Positions 4,178-62,044 are shown, counted from the stretch's first letter. The stretch: 64,000 nucleotides of DNA from Candidatus Zixiibacteriota bacterium (GCA_024276275.1 JAJRXM010000080.1:1-64000); one strand, 5' to 3'. Notes: generated by a model from the letters alone, not told the origin. A program made the numbers and translations.

Positions 4178-5376
4178 ATGAAAACTAAACGACTATATTA
4201 TACGGACTCTAACTTACTCTCTTTTAACTCAAGAATAGCTGCAGTTTCTCAGGATGAAGATAAGTTTGTAACTGTTTTGGAGAAAACAGCATTTTATCCG
4301 ACCTCCGGAGGACAACAACACGATATAGGTATCTTACAAAATGTACCTGTTATCGATGTTATCGACGGAGACGAGATTAAACATATCACAGAGTCAGAAG
4401 TAGGCAAAGTAGGCGAAATTGTTTCAGGTCGGATTGACTATGAACGGAGACATAGAAACAAACAACAACATTCGGCACAACATATTTTAAGTCAATCATT
4501 TCATCGGCTATATAATTTTGTTACGATGTCGGTTCATTTGGGAGAGAGTTATGGAAATATAGAACTTGATGTCAAAGAACTTTCTGAAATTCAAATTCAA
4601 AAAGCAGAATTTTTGTCTAATAGGGTTATTTCTGAAAACCGTTTAGTACAAGCTATTTTAATACATTCAGATAATATCGGTCTGTACAATCTTAGGAAAC
4701 TGCCTAAGCGGGAAGGTGAAATCAGACTGATTCAAATAGATGATTTTGAATGTACCGCCTGTGGAGGTACTCATGTGAATTTCACCTCGGAAATACAAAT
4801 GCTTAAAATCATATCTACTGAGAAAATAAGAGGGCGGGTTGCCGTAAACTTTTTATGCGGTCAAAACGCGGTAGATGATTATATAACCCGCTTTAAAGTC
4901 ACAAACTCAATCGCCAAGAAACTGACATGTTCAGTCAACGATTTAGAATTACATTTTGATAAATTAGTTGAAACGAATAAATCTCTTAAAAGATATTTAT
5001 CTCAATTGCAAAAAGAACTAGTGCCGCAAATTGTACAATCTTTAATTACCTCTGTTGAAGATATAAATAATACCAATGTTTGTTTGCAAAAGAAAGTCGT
5101 TTTGATAAAAAAAATATCAATCAATTTTCATTGGAACTTGCAGAAAAATGTAACGGAATATCAATTCTCTTGTATAATGATAAAATCATTATATGTTGTG
5201 CCAAGTCAATCAAGCAAAGCGCCGGAGAGATTGCTAAAAAATTATCCTCTGTAACAAATTTAAAAGGCGGCGGTAATAAAAATTTGGCACAAGTTGGCGG
5301 TGCGGTTGAAAGTGAATTTGATATGTATAAAACAAGGATTGTTGATATTATTACTCAGGAAAACAATGTCGAATAG
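4178..5376 (+). CDS. AlaX-like alanyl-tRNA editing protein, frameshifted
   Basis: The protein resembles long AlaX proteins, which hydrolyse Ser- or Gly-tRNA(Ala). It has TAFYPTSGGQ near residue 38, zinc motif HSAQH (H98, H102) and CTACGGTH (C195, H199), then a coiled segment and a DHHA1-type C-terminal domain. The starting frame runs to 5254 but degenerates after about 5080. The C-terminal domain (FAKESRFDKKN, then GGGNKNLAQVGG) lies in the -1 frame and ends with TAG at 5374-5376. One missing T near 5079-5085 would restore a protein of about 399 residues. An in-phase A AAA AAA heptamer at 5107-5113 could alternatively allow -1 slippage. The lptD ATG overlaps the end by 11 bp. The family is secure; whether it is functional is uncertain. 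Confidence 0.8.
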
Positions 5377-8300
5377 TAAATTACTTTTTCTTTTTATATT
5401 ACTTCTTTCAACTTCTCTTTATGCAAAAGAGTCTCTTGTCTTAGAACATTCCGATCAGTTTGAAGTTCAGCAACTACAAGATGAATATGTCACCTATGTT
5501 GTCGGTAATGTCCATTTCATAACTGAAACAGGCAATATCTATTGTGACTCGGCAAAGTGGGTGAAAGGTGAGGATATACAACTCAACGGTAATGTAATTG
5601 TTGAGGATGAAAAGTATTTTTTAAAAGCTGACTCTGTTTTTTATGATATGGGAAAAGGTGAATATCTTGCTCTCGGTGAACATGTAGAGTTATGGTCATA
5701 TAAAGATTCCGTCTACGCTGCGGGTAGTCAGGCATTTTTTGAAGAAGGAGGAAGCTCCTTTTACATGGAAAACCGACCTTTGATGTATCTTAATTACCCC
5801 GATACAATGACGATGTATGAAATTTTAGGTGATAGAATTGACTATAATGCTGAGACTAAAGAGGCCGAGGCTTACGGAGATGTAAAAATTTCGTCTAAGC
5901 AGTTTTCCTCACAATCAAATTGTGCCAAAATAAAAGCGGGTGGTAATATCTTAGACCTTTATGAAAAACCGTCTATTAAAAAAGGTGAGTCTGTTATTTC
6001 CGGTGAATTGATTACCGTTCACATGAACAATAATCTGATTGATTTTATTGATGTTATCGATTCCGCTAAAGCTGTATTTAAAGAACCTGTTGATTCGGTC
6101 AAAGGATATTTTGATGAGTCTATATTATCAGGTAATAGAATCGTATTATATTTTAAATACGGTGTAATGGATAATATCCTTTGCTATGGGCAGTCGTACT
6201 CTTGGTACTACCCGTCTTCACAAGGAAGAAACGAATATCAGGAGAATTCTGTCTCGGGTGATACAATTAAGTTTTTTATAGAAAACGATGAACTGCAGAC
6301 AATTCATGTTATCGGAGGTTCACAAGGACAATATCTTTCAGGAAAAAATAAAATAGTAGACTCAGCCATGGTCAATGTTGTAGACACAATTGATTACAGA
6401 TCCCATTTTATAGAATACGCTCTCAAAGATTCTCTCATATCACTTAAAGAGAAAGCGTATGTGAAATCAGGTGCGGTTGCCCTAGATGCACATTTTATTG
6501 AATTTGATACCGACAAAAATATTATCGAGGCATTCTCTGCCGATGTGAGCAGCGATACAGTTGTAAACCCATATTACCTTTCGAATAAAATTCAACCGAA
6601 TGTTATTCCGGTAATTCTTAAAGATGGTGATGAAGAAATTCTTGGAGACTATCTTTTATATTCTATTGCAACAGAAAAGGGTCGGATTGTGCAAACAAAA
6701 ACCGACTATACCGAAGGTTTGTATTACGGCAAAAAACTGTATAGAGAACAAAAAGATATTTATTATGTCAAAGAAGGAAGATACACGACATGTGATGCAG
6801 ATGAACCTCATTTTCATTTTAAATCAGATAATATGAAGATGATAGAGGGGAAACGTCTGATAGTAAAGCCTGTTGTTTTTTATATAGAATCTCTTCCAAT
6901 TTTAAAACTACCGTTTTATATTTTTCCTCTTGAAAAAGGTCGGCACTCAGGGCTGCTTCCGTTTTCATTCGGAAAATTTGAAAAAGGTGAACGGTATGTG
7001 AAAAATGTCGGATATTATTGGGCAGCCTCGGAGTATTTTGATTTAAAAACGGCCTTTGATTATTACGAACAAAGGAGGACTCTAAACGTTTATAGCAGAA
7101 TTAATTTTAATAAGAGATATGTGTTAAACGGGTATCTCGACGGAAACTACGCCCGTACGACACGATATGATACAAATGTCGGGCAGGAAGTGAAAGAGCC
7201 GAGATGGACAGTCAGCGGGGCGTATCGTCACGAATTTTCTCCGACATTTAATATCAATGCATCGGGAAGTTTCCAATCAGATTCACGGTACCAGAGTGAC
7301 TTTTCGCAAAATTTGGAAGAACGTTTAAACAGGTCGGTTCGTTCTCAATTATCATTTTCAAAGAAATTCGGAAAATCTGTTTCATTGAGTGGCTCTGTTT
7401 CTCACTTAGTAAATTTAGATACCGAAACCAGGTCAGATGAATTGCCGAGAATGGCACTTTCGTTACCGTCTTTTTACCCTTTTGGCTCAGGTAAGAAAAA
7501 CAAAGAGGGTAGACTTGAACAAAAATTTTATAACTCAATCTTTGTGCGGTACAACCCTTCGATACGTCATACTTCAAATAGAACAGCATTGCCGTTAGTT
7601 GTTGATACTTCGGTGATAATAGATACATTGCTGAATGACACTGTCACAACTATTGATTCAACAGGTGGGTATCGTACCCGAAAACGGTATGCCGTAATGA
7701 CACATAACCCTTCATTAAATCTTCCACAGGTGAAGTTAGGGCATGTATTAAATATTATCCCTCGAATAAATTATTCGGAAACATGGGTTAAGGTTTATGA
7801 GACCGACCAGTCGCTTGATGCGGGAATTGATGCCTCTAAAGTCTATCGCTCTTATTCATATAATGCAAATGTTTCGGCAACGACTAAATTATATGGTACC
7901 GTCTATCCCAATTTATTTGGGTTAATCGGTCTGCGACATGTGATAACCCCTTAGGCAAGTTTTTCATATTCTCCTGAAATTGTTAATAATAATCCGGATG
8001 TTAAATTATATACCGGTGTTGGTTTATCAAGCAACAAGAGTAGGAACATGTCGTTTCGAATAAATCAGGTCTTTCAGGCAAAAGTAAAAGACGGCGAAAA
8101 AGAAAAAAACGTGCAACTTGTTTCTATCAATTCGAATTTCAGCTATAACTTGGAAAATGAAACTCGCCAGCTTTCAAATATGATCACGACTTTTAACTCA
8201 TCAGCATTGCCGATAATTTCATCGTTGACCGGTTCGATGAGTCATACATTTTATAATTTGACTGACTCGACACAGCAATTTTGGTCACCCCAATTATTGT

Positions 8301-12212: not shown

Positions 12213-13534
12213 TGAAATTTTATGTACATAAGTTAGGCTGTCCAAAAAATGATGTTGATGCCGACTATATCTATGCCCGTCTGATTCATGAGGGGCATAC
12301 TCCTGTGAAAGACCCGTTAAAAGCTGATTCAATTATTGTAAATACCTGCGGTTTTATTCTGCCTGCCAAGGAAGAGTCTATCAATGAACTGCTCAAGTTT
12401 GGGCAGTTGAAAAAGGACGGATATTTAAAAACTCTATATGCGGCTGGTTGTCTTTCTCAAAGAAACGGTGATGAAATGTTAAAAGAGATGCCCGAGCTAG
12501 ACGGTGCTTTTGGTCTCGGTGCTTTAGATTCGCTTGCTACTGCCGTCAACGGTTCCACCACGAGTGATTTAACCGTGAAAATGGAAGCACGTAAACTTGG
12601 TTATTTAAGCTGGAATAATAGATTTATTTCTGATGAATTTCCATACTCGTATCTCAAAATTTCTGACGGATGTGACCGTGGATGTACTTATTGTGCTATT
12701 CCCGGAATGCGTGGAAAGTTCCGATCCAGACCGCTTGATTCGATAATTCGTGAGGCAAACTATCTGGCTGAAAACGGAAAAAAAGAACTGATTTTAGTTT
12801 CACAAGAAGCTACGATGTACGGATATAATTATAAAGGAAACGATAACCCTGATATTTTAACTCTTTTAAGAGAACTTGATAAAGTAAAGGGTATTGAGTG
12901 GATTCGTTTGATGTATCTATATCCGGCAGAACTTTCAGATGATGTCATCGAATACCTTGCCGCAGACAATAAGACCGTCAATTATTTTGATTTACCGTTT
13001 CAGCATATAAATACAGAACTTCTAAAGAGCATGCAGCGAAATGTTGACAGTCAGCATATTAGAAAATTAGTAAAAAAGATTAGGACTATTTCAAGCAACG
13101 CCGCATTGCGGACAACTTTTATTGTCGGCTTCCCGGGAGAAACAGAAGAACAATTTGAAGAGCTAGCTGATTTTATCCAAGAATCTAAATTTGACCGTAT
13201 GGGCGTGTTTGCATATTCTCAGGAGGATGATACTCCGGCTGCTGAAATGCCCGACCAAGTAGATGAAGATGTTAAACAGGAACGACTTAATCGGTTAATG
13301 CTTATTCAGCAGGATATCGCATTTGATAAAAATAACAGCTTGATAGAGTCTGAACAACATGTTATTATTGACACTATTGAAGACGGTCAAGCAATCGGAC
13401 GAACGTATGCCGATTGTCCTGAAGTAGATTTGGAAATTTATATAAATGATGCTAAACAAATTAAGGTTGGTGATATGCTTAAAGTAAGAATTAGTTCTAC
13501 TGAAGGCTATGACCTTTTTGGTGTCGTAATATAA
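12212..13534 (+). CDS. rimO: Ribosomal protein S12 methylthiotransferase RimO
   Basis: The 440-residue protein has the three-part methylthiotransferase architecture. The N-terminal UPF0004 domain has cluster cysteines C10, C46 and C80. The radical SAM core has C154, C158 and C161 in SDGCDRGCTYC. A C-terminal TRAM-like domain ends with GYDLFGVVI. The HKLGCPKN start and the AIPGMRGKFRSR segment favour RimO over MiaB. RimO adds a methylthio group to an aspartate of ribosomal protein S12 using two 4Fe-4S clusters and S-adenosylmethionine. Its ATG overlaps the preceding stop. Confidence 0.95.
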   Translation: MKFYVHKLGCPKNDVDADYIYARLIHEGHTPVKDPLKADSIIVNTCGFILPAKEESINELLKFGQLKKDGYLKTLYAAGCLSQRNGDEMLKEMPELDGAFGLGALDSLATAVNGSTTSDLTVKMEARKLGYLSWNNRFISDEFPYSYLKISDGCDRGCTYCAIPGMRGKFRSRPLDSIIREANYLAENGKKELILVSQEATMYGYNYKGNDNPDILTLLRELDKVKGIEWIRLMYLYPAELSDDVIEYLAADNKTVNYFDLPFQHINTELLKSMQRNVDSQHIRKLVKKIRTISSNAALRTTFIVGFPGETEEQFEELADFIQESKFDRMGVFAYSQEDDTPAAEMPDQVDEDVKQERLNRLMLIQQDIAFDKNNSLIESEQHVIIDTIEDGQAIGRTYADCPEVDLEIYINDAKQIKVGDMLKVRISSTEGYDLFGVVI

Positions 13535-13544
13535 AAGGTAACAG

Positions 13545-14189
13545 ATGATTCAGTTTGAAAAACTAGGGATATTTCTCTCAAAACCGATTGCATTTTTATT
13601 GGTGCTAATTTATTTAGTGCAGTCGATGCTTTTAATCTATCTTGTTCGTGACAAGTTTCAACTTGAGTAACAAATTACATTTCAGCAAAAGAGAATTTCA
13701 GAACTAGAAGAAAAACTGCAGGTTTTTAAAGCGATAAAAGATTTTCAAATTGGATTTAATGAACAGGAAATCGGTCAGCTTGCCAATGTTATTTATGAAG
13801 AAAGTGACAAATATCACTATGACCCGATGTTTGTACTTGCAATAATACTCACCGAATCTTCTTTTAAAAAAGGGCAGAAGTCGGGAGTAGGAGCAAGAGG
13901 TCTTATGCAGGTCGTACCGTTTGTCGGTAAAGATTTAGCTAATCGTTCAGGAATCGAATGGAATGGCTCTGAGACTCTTTATGACGTTGAAAAAAATATT
14001 AAGCTCGGAACACTACACTTATTCGAACAAATACTCGAGTTTGGTGATATAAATAAAGCACTGGTTGCTTACAATATGGGCGAAACTCGTGTGCGAGGTA
14101 TGCTGCGGAAAAATACACAGCTGCCTGATAAGTATTTAAATAAAGTCTTGGAACATTATAAAATGCTGAAGGAGAATTATTCAGTTTGA
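13545..14189 (+). CDS. Membrane-anchored lytic transglycosylase, interrupted by TAA
   Basis: The ATG at 13545 opens a 215-codon frame: an N-terminal membrane anchor (residues 15-37), a coiled-coil segment, and a soluble SLT-type domain. The catalytic glutamate lies in LTESSFKKG, and GARGLMQVVP and VAYNMGETRVRG follow as in E. coli Slt/MltC. The enzyme would cleave glycan strands of peptidoglycan, leaving 1,6-anhydro ends. An in-frame TAA at 13668-13670 (codon 42) separates the anchor from the catalytic domain. Reinitiation at a downstream start could make a cytoplasmic product only. The stop overlaps the bamD TTG start by 4 bp. Confidence 0.8.
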
Positions 14190-15115
14190 AAAATAGATTA
14201 TATATCATGTTAGTAGGTCTTTGTCTCTTTTCTATTACACTTGTAAGTTGTGGAGGTAAGCAATCTTTAAATACCTTAACCTCTCAAGAGTTATTTAACT
14301 TAGGAAAAGAGAAATACGACAAAAAGAAATTCTTAAAGGCTATCGAACATTTTCAAGTTCTTGTGTACAATTACCCCGGTGAATCAATTGTAGATACAGC
14401 CCAATACTATCTGGCTCTTTCATATTTTGGTGATAAATCTTATGAACTTGCAAAAGTGGAATTTAATCGTTTGGCAATAAATTATCCCGCCTCTACATAT
14501 GCCGAAGATGCTATTTTTATGAAGGCAGTTTGTCTATATGAAGGTACGCCTAAGCATTTTGGATTAGATCAATCTGATTTATATATCGCTATAAGACAAT
14601 TTGAAGAATTTATTATTGATTTCCCTGAGTCAAATGTTATCGGAGAAGCTAAACGTTATTTACTCGAAGCTCATACTCGTCTGGCAAGAAAACATTATAA
14701 TAGTGCAATAGTATATGATAGGATTGGCACATATAAAGCAGCTGAAATTTATTTTCAAAAAGTTGTAGATGAATATACTAATACTGAATATGCTCCTTTG
14801 GCAACGTACGGACTTGCTGAAATGGAATACAAACTGAAAAATTATGAAGTAGCAAGAGAAAAGTTCTCAGATTTTATCATTGTTTTTAAAGACCACATAC
14901 TAATTGAAAAAGCTAAAGAATATATTGAAAAAGCAGCTTTTAAATCAGGTGAATTAGCATTTGACAAAAAAGAATACTCTAAAGCTAAAGAGTACTTTCA
15001 GGCATATCTGAACGATTTTCCTAATGGGGATAAAGTTAAAAAAGTAACCGAATTGATAGAAAAAATTAATGCTATCCCTCATGTGTCAACACAGGAAAGT
15101 AATGAAAGCTCCTGA
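14186..15115 (+). CDS. bamD: BamD-like outer membrane assembly lipoprotein
   Basis: A TTG start at 14186, overlapping the previous stop and preceded by AAGGAG, gives a lipoprotein signal peptide with lipobox LVSC at the cysteine of residue 22. The mature protein is built of TPR-like helical repeats (LFNLGKEKYDKKKFLKAIEHF and similar), as in BamD/YfiO, the essential helper lipoprotein of the BAM beta-barrel assembly machine. At 309 residues it is longer than E. coli BamD (245), with extra C-terminal repeats common in other phyla. YbgF/CpoB-like TPR lipoproteins are the main alternative. It overlaps nadD by 14 bp. Confidence 0.8.
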   Translation: MKNRLYIMLVGLCLFSITLVSCGGKQSLNTLTSQELFNLGKEKYDKKKFLKAIEHFQVLVYNYPGESIVDTAQYYLALSYFGDKSYELAKVEFNRLAINYPASTYAEDAIFMKAVCLYEGTPKHFGLDQSDLYIAIRQFEEFIIDFPESNVIGEAKRYLLEAHTRLARKHYNSAIVYDRIGTYKAAEIYFQKVVDEYTNTEYAPLATYGLAEMEYKLKNYEVAREKFSDFIIVFKDHILIEKAKEYIEKAAFKSGELAFDKKEYSKAKEYFQAYLNDFPNGDKVKKVTELIEKINAIPHVSTQESNESS

Positions 15116-52690: not shown

Positions 52691-53992
52691 TTACTGTCTG
52701 ATCCATTTCATTATTTCAGGTAAAGTAGCTCTTTTGCCGTGCATCAGAATTCCCATTCTAAATATCTTAGCTGTGAGCCAAATAGTTCCGACAACTGAAG
52801 CAGCTAAGACAATTAAAGCTAAAATAGATACTAAAATAGCGGGTTGAAATAAGCTGTGATCCGGAAGTGACGGTATAATAAAATTAAGTCTTAATACCAT
52901 CGAGGTCGGAGTAAACATCGGAATAAATGACATAATTCTGACTACTAAAGAATTTGGATCGTCGATAATCATTGAACTCAGTATCACAGGAATCATTAGG
53001 CACATAACAATAGGAATTAAGAAATTTTGTGCTTCTTTTTATGTATCTACTATTGACCCAAGGAGAGCAAAGATAGTCGAATATAGCAAGAACCCAAGTA
53101 TAAAAAAGAGAACTATAAATATAAGCAAAAGCGGAGTTAAAATTCCATCGAGCAAGGTTGATTGAACCGGATTAAAGGCAAAGATAATATAGCCTGCAAC
53201 AACCCAAATAGAAACTTGCGTAAGGGTAGCGGCACCGAGACCAAATATTTTTCCGAGCATCAGTTGAAATGGTGTAACTGATGAAACTAAGACTTCCATG
53301 ATACGGGAAGTTTTTTCATCTATAACTGAACGCATAACCATTTGTCCGTTCAGAACAATTAACATATACATCAACATGACAAATACAATTGCAATAATCA
53401 TTTGAATTTCGTAGGAAACAGTCTCTCCTTTTAAATCTTTTGCTATTAAATCTATGCGTTGAGTCATGTTTAGTATTGAGTCAATCGGAACATTGATATC
53501 CGAAGCTTCTAAACGTTTAGATGAAATAACTTTTGTCAACTGCCATCTAAATTTTCTATTGGCAGAGATATTTTCATTACTTGCAACGACATATACACCA
53601 GTGTCCGTAGACATTGCATCCTGAGTTATAACAACTAAATACTTTAATTTCCCTTCAGAAATCAAACTTTGCAGTGAATCTTTTGTTGTATTAAATCGTT
53701 CCGATTAGAACGAGTCAATTGTAAATAGATTTTCTACCTGAAAAGAGGCTGTAACAGAATCATCAAGTGTGTAGACTTCAAGATTTTCGACAAATTCTTT
53801 GCCTATTTCTAGGTTAGTCTGATCGATAACAGCTAAGTGTTCAGTCTTTTTTTCATCAAACTTTTCAATCAACAGCGGGGCAAACATGGCAAATCCCATA
53901 ATTAGCGGTGTCAGAATTAATCCGACAAGAAAGGATTTTTTCTTCACTACTTGGGCGTATTCATGCTTAAATACTATCATAAATTTATGCAT
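52691..53992 (-). CDS. NatB-like ABC exporter permease, interrupted by two TAA codons
   Basis: The ATG at 53992 (MHKFMIVFKHEYAQVVKKK) begins an ABC-2 permease of 434 codons: helix 1, a large periplasmic domain, then SRIMEVLVSSVTPFQLMLGK and four or five more helices. In-frame TAA codons at 53707-53705 (codon 96) and 53041-53039 (codon 318) break it. At the second, IVDT-stop-KEAQNFLIP, relatives carry Glu or a similar residue, and the frame continues intact on both sides. NatAB-type systems export Na+ or unknown compounds. It overlaps natA by 8 bp. Confidence 0.8.
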
Positions 53993-54914
53993 GCTGTCCC
54001 CCGTTTCCGTTAAAGTCAGACGGGTCTGCATTGGCGGTCTCTATAAATATTTCATACAAAGACGGTTCCATAATTTCAAATCGTTTTATCAAGACTTTTT
54101 CAGCTACAGAACTTAATATCTGATTTGTATCAGATGTCGTATCAAATTTTATTTCAATATAATTGTTATTTTCTCTGAATGATTTAACACCCGGAAGTGA
54201 TTGTATAAATTTTCCGTCTCCTTCAATAGAAATTTGAATAGAGTTGTTTCCAAACTGAGCTTTTACATCATTTAAGGTGCCGTCTAAAACTTTTTTCCCG
54301 CCTGCTATCATACATAGATTATCACAGATTTTTTCTGCTTGCTCCATGACATGGGTCGAAAACAGAATAGTCTTCCCTTGTTGTTTGAGATCCATAATAA
54401 TATCTTTAATAAGTTCTATGTTAATAGGATCAAGTCCTGAGAAGATTTCATCAAGAATAATAATATCCGGTTCATGAATAATCGTTGTTACAAATTGAAG
54501 TTTCTGCTGCATTCCTTTAGACAGTTCTTCAACTTTCTTATCTTTGTAATCAAGTAAATCAACTCTTTTGAGCCAATAGTCAAGTTTCTCTTTTACTTGA
54601 GATTTTGGGAAGTCTTTTAGAGCTGCCATATATGAAACGACTTCCATTAGAGTCATTTTTTTGTATAGACCACGTTCTTCGGGAAGATAACCGACTCTGT
54701 CCCGAAAAGATTGGTCAACTTGTTTTCCTTCAAACAGAATTTCTCCCGAATCAGGAATAGTGATATTCATCACCATGCGAATAGTAGTAGTTTTACCTGC
54801 CCCGTTTGGACCGATAATACCATAGATATTCCCCTGGGGTATTTCAAGAGAAAGTGAGTCTACCGCAACTTTCTCATCGTACTCTTTTCGAATATTTTTT
54901 AATTCTAACAGCAT
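53985..54914 (-). CDS. ABC transporter ATP-binding protein (NatA-like)
   Basis: The 309-residue ATPase has Walker A GPNGAGKTT at residues 35-43, the signature ELSKGMQQKLQF, Walker B IIILDEIFSGLDP and the switch histidine in FSTHVM. Its C-terminal extension of about 80 residues matches NatA/BcrA-type ATPases. It partners with the overlapping permease gene for export across the inner membrane. Confidence 0.93.
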   Translation of the reverse strand: MLLELKNIRKEYDEKVAVDSLSLEIPQGNIYGIIGPNGAGKTTTIRMVMNITIPDSGEILFEGKQVDQSFRDRVGYLPEERGLYKKMTLMEVVSYMAALKDFPKSQVKEKLDYWLKRVDLLDYKDKKVEELSKGMQQKLQFVTTIIHEPDIIILDEIFSGLDPINIELIKDIIMDLKQQGKTILFSTHVMEQAEKICDNLCMIAGGKKVLDGTLNDVKAQFGNNSIQISIEGDGKFIQSLPGVKSFRENNNYIEIKFDTTSDTNQILSSVAEKVLIKRFEIMEPSLYEIFIETANADPSDFNGNGGQHA

Positions 54915-55815: not shown

Positions 55816-55867
55816 GAAAGTAACCCTGCCAATAAAAAATTGTTGAAAAACAATATTAGTGTTTCAA

Positions 55868-55940
55868 GCCCCTTCGACTCCGCTCAGGGTGACTTGAAAG
55901 ACTGCTGTTATATCTTGTCATACTGAGCGGAGTCGAAGTA
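55868..55940. repeat. Inverted pair of CTTCGACTCCGCTCAG repeats
   Basis: CTTCGACTCCGCTCAG (55872-55887) and CTGAGCGGAGTCGAAG (55923-55938) are perfect 16-bp inverted copies 35 bp apart, each with its own GGGTGAC or TGTCATA flank. Together they could form a long cruciform. The paired layout is like a bipartite REP element (BIME). The same sequence occurs before leuS. Confidence 0.75.
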
Positions 55941-56047: not shown

Positions 56048-56176
56048 TCACTTTTTTGGGTTTTTCTTTATTTGTTGAAAACGGGTATAATTACAGTTTG
56101 GGCAAATCCATTTCCGTTGTTTATGAAATGAACGTTTTTCCTCTTTCATTGAGGATTTGCATCTTGGACAGATCAT
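56048..56176 (-). CDS. 42-residue zinc-ribbon protein
   Basis: On the minus strand an ATG at 56176-56174 encodes MICPRCKSSMKEEKR continuing to WICPNCNYTRFQQ and a basic tail. Two CPxC knuckles 22 residues apart (C3/C6 and C25/C28) form a zinc ribbon. It starts six bases after the stop of the upstream membrane-protein gene, so it is the last gene of that operon and probably translationally coupled. Such ribbons bind nucleic acids or proteins; the partner is unknown. Confidence 0.7.
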   Translation of the reverse strand: MICPRCKSSMKEEKRSFHKQRKWICPNCNYTRFQQIKKNPKK

Positions 56177-56182
56177 ATCTAA

Positions 56183-56797
56183 TTATTGGGTGATTTTGAG
56201 GAAGTCTGAGAGTAAAAATTCCATCCGTCCTATAAAAGTCGACATGCGGGACATGACGGTATAACCAAAAGTAGTTCCGAAAAATATCATAAGGAAAAAT
56301 GTACCGAGTTTAGCAAATGAACCGAATTTGCCTTTATGTTCTCTGCTAAAATAGAAATATGCCAGAGTAGAAAGTAGTCCGACTATAACAACTATGCCCG
56401 AAAAGTTGAAAGAACCGTCGGGTAAAAACAGAGGCATTACTGATGCGGATAGTTGTTTGATAGTACGGTTATAGAGCATTGTCGGTATAGCAATTCCCGC
56501 ACCTGAACCTATCATGACTGCTATCGGGATTCTTGAGAGTGCGACAGTTTTATTTGAAAATCGGCCCAGCATCAATAACCCTAATAGTAATGGAATAAGT
56601 AATGTTAATTCTGCATTTTGAAATAGCGGTTCAAAAAGCATATCCATGAGAGTGTTAGTCCAGGTGATGACTAAAACGTACCCGATAGAAACTCCGATTA
56701 GCAGTGATTCTGCCATTTTATAAAATGGATTATCTTTGTAAAGAAAAGTGAAGATTATTAAAGTGAGAAGCCCTGCTATAATAGTGGAAATATCCAT
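56183..56797 (-). CDS. Multi-pass membrane protein, gene 4 of unknown membrane operon
   Basis: The 204-residue protein has about six hydrophobic segments, including IIAGLLTLIIFTFLY, LTLLIPLLLGLLMLG and FFLMIFFGTTFGYTV. No family is recognised with confidence. The start overlaps the previous stop as TAATG. Together with the three upstream genes it probably forms one membrane complex. Confidence 0.7.
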   Translation of the reverse strand: MDISTIIAGLLTLIIFTFLYKDNPFYKMAESLLIGVSIGYVLVITWTNTLMDMLFEPLFQNAELTLLIPLLLGLLMLGRFSNKTVALSRIPIAVMIGSGAGIAIPTMLYNRTIKQLSASVMPLFLPDGSFNFSGIVVIVGLLSTLAYFYFSREHKGKFGSFAKLGTFFLMIFFGTTFGYTVMSRMSTFIGRMEFLLSDFLKITQ

Positions 56798-57603
56798 TAG
56801 CTTTTTCCTCCCTTTTTACGAGACCGAAAATAGAAGATATTTCCCAAAATTACTAAAAAGATAATATACAAATGAGCAGCTGACTGAGCCAGCATTCCTC
56901 TAGAACCTCCACCCTTCATGCCGAGCAGTTTTTCATATTCGGCAGCACCACGTAATCCACCAATCATAGCAGTCATCTGATTAGAAGAAAGATACGGGTC
57001 GTAGGTTGTTACCATTGCAGCAGTAACGGCACCTAATATCTTTATGTTAAACTGTCCACCGTATTCTATCCAATGAGTTGTCAGGGAGCCGTCAGCTATT
57101 GAAATAACAGCTTCGATGTCATCGTAATTCTGAATATTTGAAAGCATCGGAATAGAATTATAGTCGTTGCCGAGATAATCCTGAGGGTAGGTACTTTCTA
57201 TCGATTCTCCCATAGCAAGGATAGCGGCTATATATTGCGGACGGAAACCGAGATAAACAAAATCATCACCATACGTTTTATCGTATTCTTTGGCTATGTT
57301 TTTCATTAGTCGATAACCGATAAGAGTTCCTTCAGGATAAAGCGAAACTCCGATAAGTTTAAAGTTTTTTTGAAAGGAATGGCGTAACATTGCTAATGCT
57401 ATCGGTCGGATTTCAGGAAGTGAGGATGCTTCATGGTCAAATGAAATAATCAGAGTAGAACCTTCAGGTAGAGAATCTATATACGCATGCATCTTTTTTG
57501 TATATGGCGAAACTTTAACATCAACAGATATATCTAATGCCATTGTAATTCCGATTAAAAGAAAGAGACCAAGAAAAACATAATGTCTCGGTAGAATTTG
57601 CAT
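56797..57603 (-). CDS. Membrane-anchored protein with extracytoplasmic domain, gene 3 of operon
   Basis: The ATG at 57603 overlaps the upstream stop as TAATG and is preferred over a start seven codons earlier. A first helix (VFLGLFLLIGITMAL), a soluble alpha/beta domain of about 200 residues and a final helix (LYIIFLVILGNIFYF) give a two-anchor layout. The soluble part contains STLIISFDHEASSLPEIRP and FVYLGFRPQYIAAI. The layout parallels that of gene 1. The family is not recognised and the function unknown. Confidence 0.7.
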   Translation of the reverse strand: MQILPRHYVFLGLFLLIGITMALDISVDVKVSPYTKKMHAYIDSLPEGSTLIISFDHEASSLPEIRPIALAMLRHSFQKNFKLIGVSLYPEGTLIGYRLMKNIAKEYDKTYGDDFVYLGFRPQYIAAILAMGESIESTYPQDYLGNDYNSIPMLSNIQNYDDIEAVISIADGSLTTHWIEYGGQFNIKILGAVTAAMVTTYDPYLSSNQMTAMIGGLRGAAEYEKLLGMKGGGSRGMLAQSAAHLYIIFLVILGNIFYFRSRKKGGKS

Positions 57604-58223
57604 TATCTCTCCCCTCCCAGCCACGTTCGTTCAATGCCGAGAATTACTCTCAAGGATGTTGTCAGCGAACCGAGTCCGATACCGATAAGTATTGCTCGTC
57701 GAGCGGTCATTGAGGGGTAGTTACGAATCCAATCGGCAAGTTCAGAAAGATGTTCGGTATACGGAAGCGGTAAATTGGAGCGTGACAGTAGAATTATAAG
57801 AGCAGCTCCTAAAAGTATAGAAGCCTGCAAAGACCTTGCTCTAAATCCCCTGAATGATGCCGATGCGACAAAAAAAGCGAGCAAAGCAAAAACTGTCGAT
57901 GCCATCGGAGCCTGTACATTTTCAAACATCCACATAAAAGGAGAATCAGCTTTTATCCCCCAAATTAGAGCCATGAAAGGCATAGAAATCATTCCTAAAA
58001 GCCCGACAATTAGATACGGTCTGTCAATCCGACGTGAAATTTTAGTCAGGTTGACTTTTATAAAACTGACAACACCTATTATGAGCGTAAAAGCAAAAAT
58101 AATTTGCCAATAATCTAAAATAGCTAAATTCACGCTTCGGGATATTGTATGATTGGAAAAGTACTGCAAAAACATAACAAGACCGAAAGAGAAACAGACT
58201 ATAAGCGGTATCTGACGATTCAT
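57603..58223 (-). CDS. Multi-pass membrane protein, gene 2 of operon
   Basis: The ATG at 58223 overlaps the stop of gene 1 (TAATG). The 206-residue protein has about six hydrophobic segments (IPLIVCFSFGLVMFLQYF; IIFAFTLIIGVVSFI; LLGMISMPFMALIWG and others) and ends ILGIERTWLGGER. It resembles gene 4 in size and topology. The function is unknown. Confidence 0.7.
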   Translation of the reverse strand: MNRQIPLIVCFSFGLVMFLQYFSNHTISRSVNLAILDYWQIIFAFTLIIGVVSFIKVNLTKISRRIDRPYLIVGLLGMISMPFMALIWGIKADSPFMWMFENVQAPMASTVFALLAFFVASASFRGFRARSLQASILLGAALIILLSRSNLPLPYTEHLSELADWIRNYPSMTARRAILIGIGLGSLTTSLRVILGIERTWLGGER

Positions 58224-59029
58224 TAGAATTTCCACCAATACGAAAGCTGGCCGCCGTTTAGTGATTCTATGGTCGCCCAAATAACTGCAACTATAACAAA
58301 TAATGCGATGAGAATTTTCATAATGTCTTGTGCCTGAACCGATGCCAGAATAGATTTATTTCCGCTTAAATAACCCGATGCGGCGAATAGTTCCTCCCCG
58401 ATTAACGTGTAGTCACAGGCTACGATGAAAAATGATAATTGAATTGTTGAATCGGTACCGGCAATTTGTATCGCATTGATTGAATTACCAGTCTCAGCCA
58501 AAATTAACGACTCTGCCTCAAATGTACCTAATAAGAAAATAGATGCCGGCTTTGTACGGCTGATAATACCGTCAACTGCGGCAGCATAGCCGAATTGCGA
58601 AGATGACACATAGGTAATATTATGCTCTTTATATCTGTCGGGATAGCCTGTTCGGGAATAACTTTCTTTGACAACCTCCTGAGCTACAGACATAATTACC
58701 GGGTCATGGGTCGGAAAGACTAAATCGCAATCATATTGTGAGGTTTTCTCTGCGACAAAACTTAAGATATTCATCGAGGCAATCGTTGTCGGGCGTTGGA
58801 TATCTCCTCCCCATCCCGGGGTATACAGAAGCGGTCGTGCCATTTCTGTTGCTCTGCCGATAGCATCTTCAACTGCTTTTAGACCGTTTATTTTGCGGAT
58901 TGTAAAAGGTTTTTTTCTCTTTTGGAAATATGTCGTGTATAACAAAATAAGAATTGCTATAAGGGAAATCAGAAAAGTTGCCAGTCTATCGCTGTTAAAT
59001 AATGATTGAGCCGCAATAAGTATTATCAT
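58223..59029 (-). CDS. DUF6754-like membrane protein, gene 1 of operon
   Basis: The 268-residue protein has an N-terminal helix (LATFLISLIAILILLY), a conserved soluble domain (ATEMARPLLYTPGWGGDIQRP; FGYAAAVDGIISRTKPASIF; FIVACDYTLIGEELFAASGYL) and a C-terminal helix. The RPLLYTPG and IGEELFAASGYL stretches match my recollection of DUF6754, a family of unknown function in uncultured phyla; this was not verified. It heads a tightly overlapping four-gene operon divergent from a sugar ABC importer. Confidence 0.65.
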   Translation of the reverse strand: MIILIAAQSLFNSDRLATFLISLIAILILLYTTYFQKRKKPFTIRKINGLKAVEDAIGRATEMARPLLYTPGWGGDIQRPTTIASMNILSFVAEKTSQYDCDLVFPTHDPVIMSVAQEVVKESYSRTGYPDRYKEHNITYVSSSQFGYAAAVDGIISRTKPASIFLLGTFEAESLILAETGNSINAIQIAGTDSTIQLSFFIVACDYTLIGEELFAASGYLSGNKSILASVQAQDIMKILIALFVIVAVIWATIESLNGGQLSYWWKF

Positions 59030-59147: not shown

Positions 59148-60356
59148 ATGATGATGAAAAAGATATACCTAATAGCAGTTCTAGTTATACTACAAGCTCA
59201 ACTTCTTTCTGCGAAAACAACTATCAGCTGGTGGCAGTTTTGGACTGACCCAAGCATAAAACCTGTCATAGAAGAAATGACTGCTGAATTTGAGAAACAG
59301 AACCCTGATATTGAAGTAGAATTGACTGACCTTACCTGGGCAAACGGTCGTGAAAAAATAGTCATCGCATTTGCCTCCGGCACCGGTCCTGATGTTGTTG
59401 AACTCGGTTCTGACTGGATTGCGGAGTTTGCGGTAAACGGACATTTAGCTGAATATACTGTTGATGAAAAAGCCCAGGAAGAATTTCACGGTTGGGAGAT
59501 GGCAACATTTCAAAATAAAGTTTACGCCAAACCTTGGTTTTTAGGAACACGGGTTCTCTTCGGCAACAGGGACCTTTTAACAAAAGCGGGGTATGATAAA
59601 AATTTTGCTCCTGTAACATTTGACCAATTTAAAGAGGCGGTCTATAAAGTTGATTCTCTTTCAAAGAAAATATACGGATTCGGTTCAAATGCTCCTGAAA
59701 AGCATCGTTTGTATAAAAAATATCTGCCTTTTTTCTGGTCATTCGGGGCTAAGATATTTTCCGATGACAACCGTCTTTGTTTGTTGGCATCGGATTATGC
59801 GGTGAATGCGTTAAACTATTATAAAGAATTACATGACTCGTGCGGATATGTGGCAAATCAGCGAGGTATTGAGGATGCATTCTTAGATGGGAAAGTCGGT
59901 TTTGTTATTTCAGGCGATTGGTTGTTAAAACGTATTGAAAATGAAAAATTAAATTTTAATTTACTTTCCACTTTGATACCGGGAGAAAAATATCCGGGTA
60001 AATCATTTATGGGTGGAGAATTTCTGGCTATTAACAAAAACTCAAAAAATAAAAAAGCTGCTCAGAAATTTGTAGATTTTATTACATCGCCTGAAAATCA
60101 GGTCAAATTCTGCAAAGCAAATCGCTCTGCGAACCCTTCAAGTAAAACAGCTGCATCGGACGATTATTTTACATCAAATACCCATCTGCAAACATTCATA
60201 AAACAATTGCAGCTCGCTAATCATCCACCTGTTGATCCAAACTGGGTTTTGTTTGAGTCTATAATTGAAAAGGCAGTCGAAGATGCTCTTTTTGGTGACA
60301 GGCAAACAGCAACTGCCTTATATGAAGCACGGAAAAAAATTGAAGCACTTCGTTGA
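59148..60356 (+). CDS. Sugar ABC transporter substrate-binding protein (family 1)
   Basis: The 402-residue exported protein has a signal peptide (YLIAVLVILQAQLLSAK) and the family 1 extracellular solute-binding fold: WWQFWTDPSIKPVIEEMTAEFEKQNPDIEVE at the start, SGTGPDVVELGSDWIAEFA, and GGEFLAINKNSKNKKAAQKFVDF near the C-terminus. It would deliver an oligosaccharide or sugar alcohol to the two downstream permeases. No lipobox is obvious. The ligand is unknown. Confidence 0.93.
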   Translation: MMMKKIYLIAVLVILQAQLLSAKTTISWWQFWTDPSIKPVIEEMTAEFEKQNPDIEVELTDLTWANGREKIVIAFASGTGPDVVELGSDWIAEFAVNGHLAEYTVDEKAQEEFHGWEMATFQNKVYAKPWFLGTRVLFGNRDLLTKAGYDKNFAPVTFDQFKEAVYKVDSLSKKIYGFGSNAPEKHRLYKKYLPFFWSFGAKIFSDDNRLCLLASDYAVNALNYYKELHDSCGYVANQRGIEDAFLDGKVGFVISGDWLLKRIENEKLNFNLLSTLIPGEKYPGKSFMGGEFLAINKNSKNKKAAQKFVDFITSPENQVKFCKANRSANPSSKTAASDDYFTSNTHLQTFIKQLQLANHPPVDPNWVLFESIIEKAVEDALFGDRQTATALYEARKKIEALR

Positions 60357-60359
60357 AAG

Positions 60360-61226
60360 ATGAAACAGAAAAAAACAACAGCTCTTTTTCTTGCTCTCCC
60401 CTGGATAGTCACTTTACTGTTGTTTTGGCTCTACCCTATCATCTATTCTTTTATCGTCGGTTTTACAGATAAACAGCTTTTATCAAAAACTTTCCAATGG
60501 GTCGGTTTTGATAACTATAAAGCATTATTGTCAGATGATAGTTTTCTACTCGCTTTAAAAAATACAGCTATCTTCGTAGTCGGAACAATTCCTCTTACTA
60601 CTATTATTGCTTTGCTTTTAGCCTTATTAGTAAATAAACAATTTAAAGGGCGTGGTTTGTTTCGAGCCGGATATTTTTTACCATCAATTACTTCAATGGT
60701 TGTCATAGCTCTTATTTTTACAAATCTTTTTCAACGAGGCGGCTATATAGCTCTTCTTGCGGAGATGCTCGGTTTTACACCTCCTCAGCATGGATTCTTA
60801 CTCGACAGCAGTACTGCTTTGTTTTCAATTATGGCAATGGATGTCTGGATGGCTGTCGGATATTATATGCTGATATTTTTAGCAGGGTTAAAGTCAATCC
60901 CACAGGAATTATATGAAGCGGCAAGGATTCAAGGTGCCGGTTCTATTCGACAGTTTTTCTCAATCACTCTGCCTTTGTTAAAACCGGTTGCTCTGTTTAT
61001 TCTTGTGATTAATTCTATAAAATCTTTTCAGGTTTTTGTCGAGATATTTGTGATGACTCAAGGAAAGTTTGAAACTTCTACAATGGTTTATTTTATCTAT
61101 GAGGCAGGTCTTACGACAAAGTTTAATTTCGGCTATGCATCCGCAGCAGCATATATACTATTTCTCATTGTTGCCGTATTTTCATTTATGCAGTTTAGGT
61201 TACTGAAAAATAGAGGGACTGTATAA
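60360..61226 (+). CDS. Sugar ABC transporter permease (MalF/UgpA-like)
   Basis: The 288-residue permease has six helices and the EAA loop EAARIQGAGSIRQFFSITLP that docks the ATPase. The ATG begins four bases after the upstream stop. It forms the heterodimeric channel with the next gene. The length and motif are typical of CUT1 importers. Confidence 0.95.
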   Translation: MKQKKTTALFLALPWIVTLLLFWLYPIIYSFIVGFTDKQLLSKTFQWVGFDNYKALLSDDSFLLALKNTAIFVVGTIPLTTIIALLLALLVNKQFKGRGLFRAGYFLPSITSMVVIALIFTNLFQRGGYIALLAEMLGFTPPQHGFLLDSSTALFSIMAMDVWMAVGYYMLIFLAGLKSIPQELYEAARIQGAGSIRQFFSITLPLLKPVALFILVINSIKSFQVFVEIFVMTQGKFETSTMVYFIYEAGLTTKFNFGYASAAAYILFLIVAVFSFMQFRLLKNRGTV

Positions 61227-61228
61227 TT

Positions 61229-62044
61229 ATGAAGTTTGTGAAAAAGCTACTTCGATACGTATTACTTTTTTTTATTTTAGGTATTATGGTCTTCCCATTG
61301 CTCTGGATGTTCAGGGTATCTTTGATGGAGTCGGGAAATTCAATAAGTTTTGATAATCTTCTGACTGCTTCATTTTCGTTGCAAAACTATATTGATCTTT
61401 TTACAAACTCCCAAATCGGAAAGTATTTATATAATTCTATCTTTGTCGGATTAATTGTCACGGTTGGAAATATAGTTTTCTGTTTTATGACGGCCTATAC
61501 GATAGCACGTTATAAATATATTGTAAATAAGGTTTTGTTTGTTTCGGTTATTCTGATTTTGATGATTCCGATTCATATTATTATTATTCCGATGTATCTG
61601 CTTATGGTTAATTTCGGTATTTATGATTCGTATTTTGCACTAATTCTTCCCTGGTTGGTTAATCCGATAGGGATATTTTTGGTCAAGCAGTATATTGAAT
61701 CTATTCCTCCCGCAATGGAAGAAGCAGCACGTATTGACGGTGCCGGTGAAATGCGAATTCTCTTTCGAATTGTCATGCCGTTATGTAAACCGGTGCTTGC
61801 CGTTTTAGCAATTCAGGTCTTTTTTACGAACTGGAACTCATTTTTATTCCCGTTTATACTTACCCAGTCAGATTCTGTACGTACTTTGCCGGTCGCTTTA
61901 GCTCTCCTTCAGGGGCACCAAGCGATTGATTGGCAACATCTTATGGCCGGTTCCGCTATTGCTGTTATACCGGTTTTAATTGTCTTTATCGTATTGCAAA
62001 AGCAGATAGTCTCGGGGATTACCGCAGGGGGAATTAAGCAGTAA
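61229..62044 (+). CDS. Sugar ABC transporter permease (MalG/UgpE-like)
   Basis: The 271-residue second permease has six helices and the EAA motif EEAARIDGAGEMRILFRIVMP. It starts two bases after the previous stop. No ATPase gene follows, so the system likely borrows a shared MsmX/MalK-type ATPase encoded elsewhere. Confidence 0.95.
   Translation: MKFVKKLLRYVLLFFILGIMVFPLLWMFRVSLMESGNSISFDNLLTASFSLQNYIDLFTNSQIGKYLYNSIFVGLIVTVGNIVFCFMTAYTIARYKYIVNKVLFVSVILILMIPIHIIIIPMYLLMVNFGIYDSYFALILPWLVNPIGIFLVKQYIESIPPAMEEAARIDGAGEMRILFRIVMPLCKPVLAVLAIQVFFTNWNSFLFPFILTQSDSVRTLPVALALLQGHQAIDWQHLMAGSAIAVIPVLIVFIVLQKQIVSGITAGGIKQ

Follow-up and report, generated by a model that had tools for sequence, protein, structure and literature searches.

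The inner-membrane platforms that work with an actin-like cytoplasmic protein include PilM-PilN-PilO of the type IV pilus, GspL of type II secretion and MreB-MreC-MreD. In this study, we describe a four-gene membrane module, G1-G4, which together with two soluble proteins, c1 and c0, might be likened to these platforms by analogy only, the common elements being an actin-fold cytoplasmic protein, its partners in the membrane and a domain outside the cytoplasm. The system matches none of them in sequence or fold, and, unlike them, it seems to contain two mutually inverted six-helix proteins and to carry a Rossmann-like domain on each face of the membrane.

Two described protein families touch the system. 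DUF6754 (PF20539), of which G1 is a full-length member, is given no function in Pfam and covers G1 alone of the system. The MutL/GlmL family (PF13941; NF040745; TIGR01319) includes c1, which spans the PF13941 model and keeps the ASKHA phosphate motifs, but c1 differs from the family in about 100 additional C-terminal residues and in its linkage to c0 and a membrane module, c0 even being fused to it in some genomes. The open-access literature searched, outside which lie preprints and many subscription papers, contained no mention of DUF6754 or PF20539 and nothing relevant on GlmL-like proteins, or ASKHA proteins in general, that have partners in the membrane. A published survey of uncultivated taxa and their unknown genes notes that Riflebacteria are rich in unknown families, with no description of the system in the relevant passages of its main text (PMC10849945). 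Judged by sequence profiles against PDB, Pfam, NCBIfam, PADLOC and PHROGs and by the folds of G1 and G3, the G1-G4 system belongs to no described system, and its function, once known, may resemble that of a known transporter class.

Organization of the operon

The window, i.e. the whole stretch of 64,000 nucleotides that was analysed, contains the following five genes:

G1, 58223-59029, minus strand: 268 aa; DUF6754; TM1, predicted cytoplasmic alpha/beta (Rossmann-like) domain, TM2
G2, 57603-58223, minus strand: 206 aa; six-helix membrane protein, predicted N-in/C-in
G3, 56797-57603, minus strand: 268 aa; TM1, predicted extracytoplasmic alpha/beta domain, TM2
G4, 56183-56797, minus strand: 204 aa; six-helix membrane protein, predicted N-out/C-out
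Zinc ribbon, 56048-56176, minus strand: 42 aa; CPRC...CPNC

An earlier note on this DNA had read these as one operon, and all five minus-strand genes were confirmed at these positions, together with the TAATG overlaps at the three G1-G4 junctions (plus-strand 'catta' at 58221-58225, 57601-57605 and 56795-56799) and the spacing of six bases from the G4 stop to the zinc-ribbon ATG. The alternation of two-anchor with six-helix proteins that it described agrees with the hydrophobic segments, namely two helices flanking an alpha/beta domain in each of G1 and G3 and six segments in each of G2 and G4, and with the AF2 models of G1 and G3. Its further observations that only G1 recalls a named family and that the operon is divergent from a sugar importer also held: G1 matches PF20539 (E 2.1e-96, 322 bits, curated cut-off 27) over residues 8-256 and profile positions 3-250 of 257, G2-G4 and the zinc ribbon had no family over cut-off in profile searches of Pfam and NCBIfam, and the importer comprises a binding protein (SBP_bac_1, E 1.9e-41) and two BPD_transp_1 permeases. 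Many relatives have at their N terminus an extracytoplasmic domain that looks Fn3-like by eye; the window G1 is without it.

Matches to a known transporter, which the same note had regarded as damaging to its reading, were absent from the Pfam, NCBIfam and PDB profiles. A weak match of G2 to the EutH permease (PF04346/NF011666; 17.9 bits against a cut-off of 25; E 0.0019 in Pfam and 1.3e-4 in NCBIfam) occurred in 4 of 61 members and was rejected as chance or composition. Anti-phage defence and phage origin were rejected as well, with zero PADLOC matches for eight proteins and nothing significant in PHROGs.

Spread and co-inheritance of the module

A GTDB contig scan with G1 yielded at least 567 relatives, the best 80 loci of which belong to Zixibacteria, Fermentibacteria, Poribacteria, Latescibacteria, WOR-3, Cloacimonadota, Edwards-, Coates-, Rifle- and Eisenbacteria and others, the closest among them being a Zixibacteria MAG with 87% G1 identity. 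The four genes, earlier suspected to belong together, were not found scattered: complete modules surround 87 of 100 G1 copies in about 15 phyla, nearly always in the order G1-G2-G3-G4, and the incomplete ones among these 100 are mostly cut by contig ends. Recurrence of these four genes in one order in about 15 phyla is far beyond chance, and G1-G4 is a conserved multi-gene module across a dozen or more poorly known phyla. The exceptions include a solitary G1 without G2-G4 on two WOR-3/Stahlbacteria contigs (L052, 9698-10777; L065, 9683-10783) and one locus with G3 and G4 swapped (L043). ATGA overlaps and short gaps are as common as TAATG in other modules, and the family as a whole does not keep strictly to TAATG junctions.

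The distance matrices of G1-G4 correlate with r of 0.74-0.84, a level reached in 0 of 500 permutations. Because the loci had been found via G1, a separate search was run with G4, and G4 copy number followed G1 copy number in 21 genomes. The genome of the window (3.39 Mb, 100 contigs) contains four DUF6754 genes, each heading a complete G1-G4 set: the one in the window, a tandem pair on contig C89 and one on C84. DUF6754 was found in 132/132 genomes of the window's phylum, usually in 4-6 copies, in 30/40 and 12/16 genomes of two other phyla, and in 0/14 well-known control genomes, which suggests that it serves a likely core function for a large part of bacterial diversity, one that is invisible in model organisms. 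Taken together, these patterns of sequence conservation make a single complex of G1-G4 a well-supported prediction.

Several loci show arrangements of their own. A tandem G1 pair (5746-6603 and 6674-7501) is followed by one G2-G3-G4 set in L090, beside MetK and SAHase, and G3 shares a frame with long HEAT repeats in L086 (4069-6006). A single G3-G4 frame in L082 was set aside, since G4 has its own ribosome-binding-like site there and the predicted ends to be joined are on different membrane faces; the frame may also stem from a sequencing indel.

Two faces of the module

From positive-inside charge counts over 53-65 sequences, the G1 domain is predicted to be cytoplasmic (net charge of +4.2 after TM1) and the G3 domain to lie outside, with G2 N-in and G4 N-out. 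A second and independent feature, the length of the segments across 88-100 homologues, agrees with these counts: predicted cytoplasmic segments vary with an s.d. of 0-0.4 residues (0.4 for the G1 domain in 100 homologues), whereas outer segments vary with an s.d. of 0.9-19 and take up insertions. Outer inserts of G2 and G4 reach about 150 residues, one Zixibacteria G2 (L081, 14713-16482) bears an FG-GAP beta-propeller in the outer loop predicted to join helices 3 and 4, and the outer N-terminal extensions of G1 vary, with long copies up to about 890 residues. Fixed cytoplasmic lengths beside variable outer ones thus suggest an invariant inner face and an outer face that is free to change. The G1/G2 and G3/G4 pairs are predicted to face opposite sides and, from charge counts and insertion sites, G2 and G4 look inverted with respect to each other, which would not fit two side-by-side copies of one soluble/channel pair. 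The multi-protein unit of the earlier note stands in this respect, but its two pairs appear to be inverted.

That note had also called for gene 1 to be compared with gene 3 and gene 2 with gene 4, and a likeness emerged between G1 and G3. Single-chain AF2 models (pLDDT 91.6 for G1 and 96.2 for G3) have in common the order of a TM helix, a helix, six strand-helix repeats and a long TM helix, and a structure-aware alignment of the two proteins is collinear over their whole length. Residues show a weak agreement over and above the class of secondary structure (z 2.3, 7/200 permutations), and hhalign detected no profile-profile similarity between them. We regard a shared origin of G1 and G3 as likely. 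For G2 and G4, hhalign gave no convincing sequence relation. Each has conserved motifs of its own, SAxxRxFRAR in a predicted cytoplasmic loop and a C-terminal GIER in G2 (61-sequence alignment), FLYKDNP and FGxFGYTVMxR in G4 (60-sequence alignment).

Foldseek matches of both models were generic Rossmann-like domains, none of them confident at full length, with nothing at E<0.001 for G1 and one match at 8.6e-4 (TM 0.29) for G3, and profiles of G1-G4, c0 and c1 had no significant sequence relative in the PDB. The Rossmann-like Moco carrier proteins (6y01, 2iz5) aligned with the G3 domain at TM-scores of 0.55-0.57 by target length (E 0.012-0.015, 7-11% identity), a shared fold type at most, and the known carriers are soluble whereas the G3 domain is predicted outside. 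Invariant residues of G1 are R59, T61, E62, E179, Q188, T192, C205, D206, E212 and E213.

Soluble partners c1 and c0

Beside modules in Fermentibacteria, a Gemmatimonadota-labelled MAG, Riflebacteria, Coatesbacteria and Zixibacteria lies a run of three genes, c2-c1-c0, and c0 immediately precedes G1 in 15 loci. Amphipathic c2 (about 115 aa) and c0 (about 375 aa, with weak biotinyl-lipoyl similarity) matched no family over cut-off, and c1 (about 610 aa) matches the full PF13941 MutL model over 1-450 (E 3e-131, 438.7 bits), its phosphate motifs DCGSTTTK and DIGGATTD being conserved in 9 sequences. Mean column identity is 70% for c1, 65% for c0, 54% for G1 and 32-36% for G2-G4.

The window's own module has no adjacent c1/c0; both are encoded elsewhere in the genome, to which we infer that the system extends, past the operon described in the earlier note, as an ASKHA ATPase with its adaptor. 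Among 15 module-bearing genomes from many phyla, c1 was present in 15 and c0 in 14, usually as single copies and in several of these genomes with neither gene near any module; the genome without c0 is a Mcinerneyibacteriota draft. Close relatives almost always have a single c0 against 3-6 modules. Of the genomes in the phylum to which the Riflebacteria locus belongs, 29 had both c0 and DUF6754, 9 had neither and 2 were discordant, and in another phylum the counts were 12, 3 and 1 (Fisher 3.6e-7 and 0.007, respectively, both uncorrected for shared ancestry); discordant drafts of one phylum have DUF6754 without c0 (G182) or c0 without DUF6754 (G168). A few genomes encode a divergent c1-c0 fusion, exemplified by 968 aa in one frame in Cloacimonadota (L093, 5047-7953), beside two sugar ABC permeases; the fusion in L092 starts at 4511. 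The co-occurrence, copy numbers and fusion support a c1-c0 partnership and a soluble set common to all modules. On C89 of the window genome (L005), c1 is read as two overlapping frames (13166-14698 and 14695-15012) where relatives have a single one, which reflects either a genuine split of the gene or an assembly error of one base.

Proposed mechanism and alternatives

We propose that G1-G4 form one inner-membrane assembly with one soluble domain per face, in which G2 and G4 would sit in the membrane inverted relative to each other. A shared engine encoded elsewhere would dock on the invariant cytoplasmic face of G1; it would consist of c1, a MutL/GlmL-superfamily ASKHA ATPase with the actin/Hsp70 fold, and its adaptor c0, joined in several phyla by c2, which is small and amphipathic. 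Changes that ATP drives in c1/c0 would pass via G1 and then the helices of G2 and G4 to the outer G3 face, which differs among paralogous modules and so would set the client, and the task, in diderm bacteria, might be to move something through the inner membrane or to assemble something there. Contact of c1/c0 with the module, the coupling to ATP and the role in transport or assembly are what we infer from the co-occurrence and conservation described above. We give an even chance to an ATP-driven c1/c0 engine that serves inner-membrane modules in transport or envelope assembly in diderm bacteria, and a somewhat smaller one to the more specific idea of an undescribed class of ATP-driven envelope machines in a large group of uncultured diderm phyla, in which one actin-fold ATPase/adaptor pair would drive several modules of two inverted pairs, each pair made of a two-anchor Rossmann-like protein and a six-helix protein, and the inner face would be invariant while the outer face would vary with the client.

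Neighbours of the modules in separate lineages suggest an envelope or transport role, including ExbB/ExbD/TonB with a TonB-dependent receptor, LptF/LptG, Wzy_C with Wzz, and ABC importers, while MetK/SAHase and aroK/aroB are ill-fitting neighbours. No single substrate follows from such mixed functions, and, as the independent envelope contexts are few and accompanied by misfits, we regard the proposed role as neither favoured nor disfavoured.

An alternative that we consider unlikely is a membrane sensor or regulatory complex, whose outer face would read signals and whose G1 domain would report to a common c1/c0 regulator, the zinc ribbon of the window subtype adding a regulatory output for the adjoining sugar importer. 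The contrast of a variable outer with an invariant inner face would suit such a sensor, as would the importer and ribbon kept by window-type modules, the frequency of ligand binding among Rossmann-like domains and a fold match, of low significance, with the regulatory RCK domain of MthK. However, four conserved membrane proteins, two of them six-helix, exceed what sensing needs, no linked kinase, cyclase or receiver domain accompanies them, and the high column identity of c1 and c0 suggests an engine.

It is rather improbable that the module is a membrane-bound enzyme complex with a catalytic G1 domain, in which c1/c0 would act as an ATP-dependent reactivase in the manner of GlmL-family proteins, which are held to serve B12 mutases. 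The very high polar conservation in G1 would suit an enzyme, and c1 is a PF13941 MutL member with GlmL as its best NCBIfam match; but its scores fall far under the cut-offs for GlmL (NF040745; 231.8 against 475 bits) and Or-4 (216.5 against 600 bits), no glutamate mutase subunits were recognised by eye in the c1 neighbourhoods inspected, and an enzyme would need neither the invariant G2/G4 loops nor the matching outer domain. A passive or proton-motive-force-driven channel or scaffold, with c1/c0 for assembly only, is equally improbable, since c0/c1 accompany modules almost without exception and G2 helices have zero conserved acidic residues (61-sequence alignment), although modules of Fermentibacteria and of a WOR-3 locus adjoin ExbB/ExbD/TonB, a Zixibacteria-like locus has ExbB, and c1/c0 genes are distant from most modules.

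If the ATP-driven engine is correct, inverted pairs with a shared ATPase/adaptor and specialised outer faces would represent a membrane machine of novel design, which the components listed here make directly testable.

Zinc ribbon and module subtypes

In a tree of concatenated sequences, window-type modules form a well supported clade of 14 rows, 12 of which, the window included, have the zinc ribbon directly after G4; its motif in 11 related window-type loci is MxCPKCK..M.E..RSFHKQRKWICPKCG.VRFQ. The ribbon is absent from other module types and is thus the fifth gene of the window subtype, not of the whole system: the small gene placed at the end of the operon by the earlier note is real, but its range is narrower than that of G1-G4. 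Other module types of Zixibacteria adjoin MutL/c0 (C89) or MetK with SAHase (C84, and L090 from another genus).

Most ribbon-bearing loci keep the divergent sugar importer, and several keep the downstream DUF72 gene. The importer (window 59148-62044, a binding protein and two permeases) has no ATPase gene alongside, and its arrangement with the module is retained in about a dozen related loci. Downstream of the operon, an inverted repeat of the TTCGACTCCGCTCAG type occupies window 55866-55938, in the gap that separates the zinc ribbon from the DUF72 gene. At window 52691-54031, on the minus strand, an ABC-2-type permease gene adjoining an ABC ATPase appears broken into three frames.
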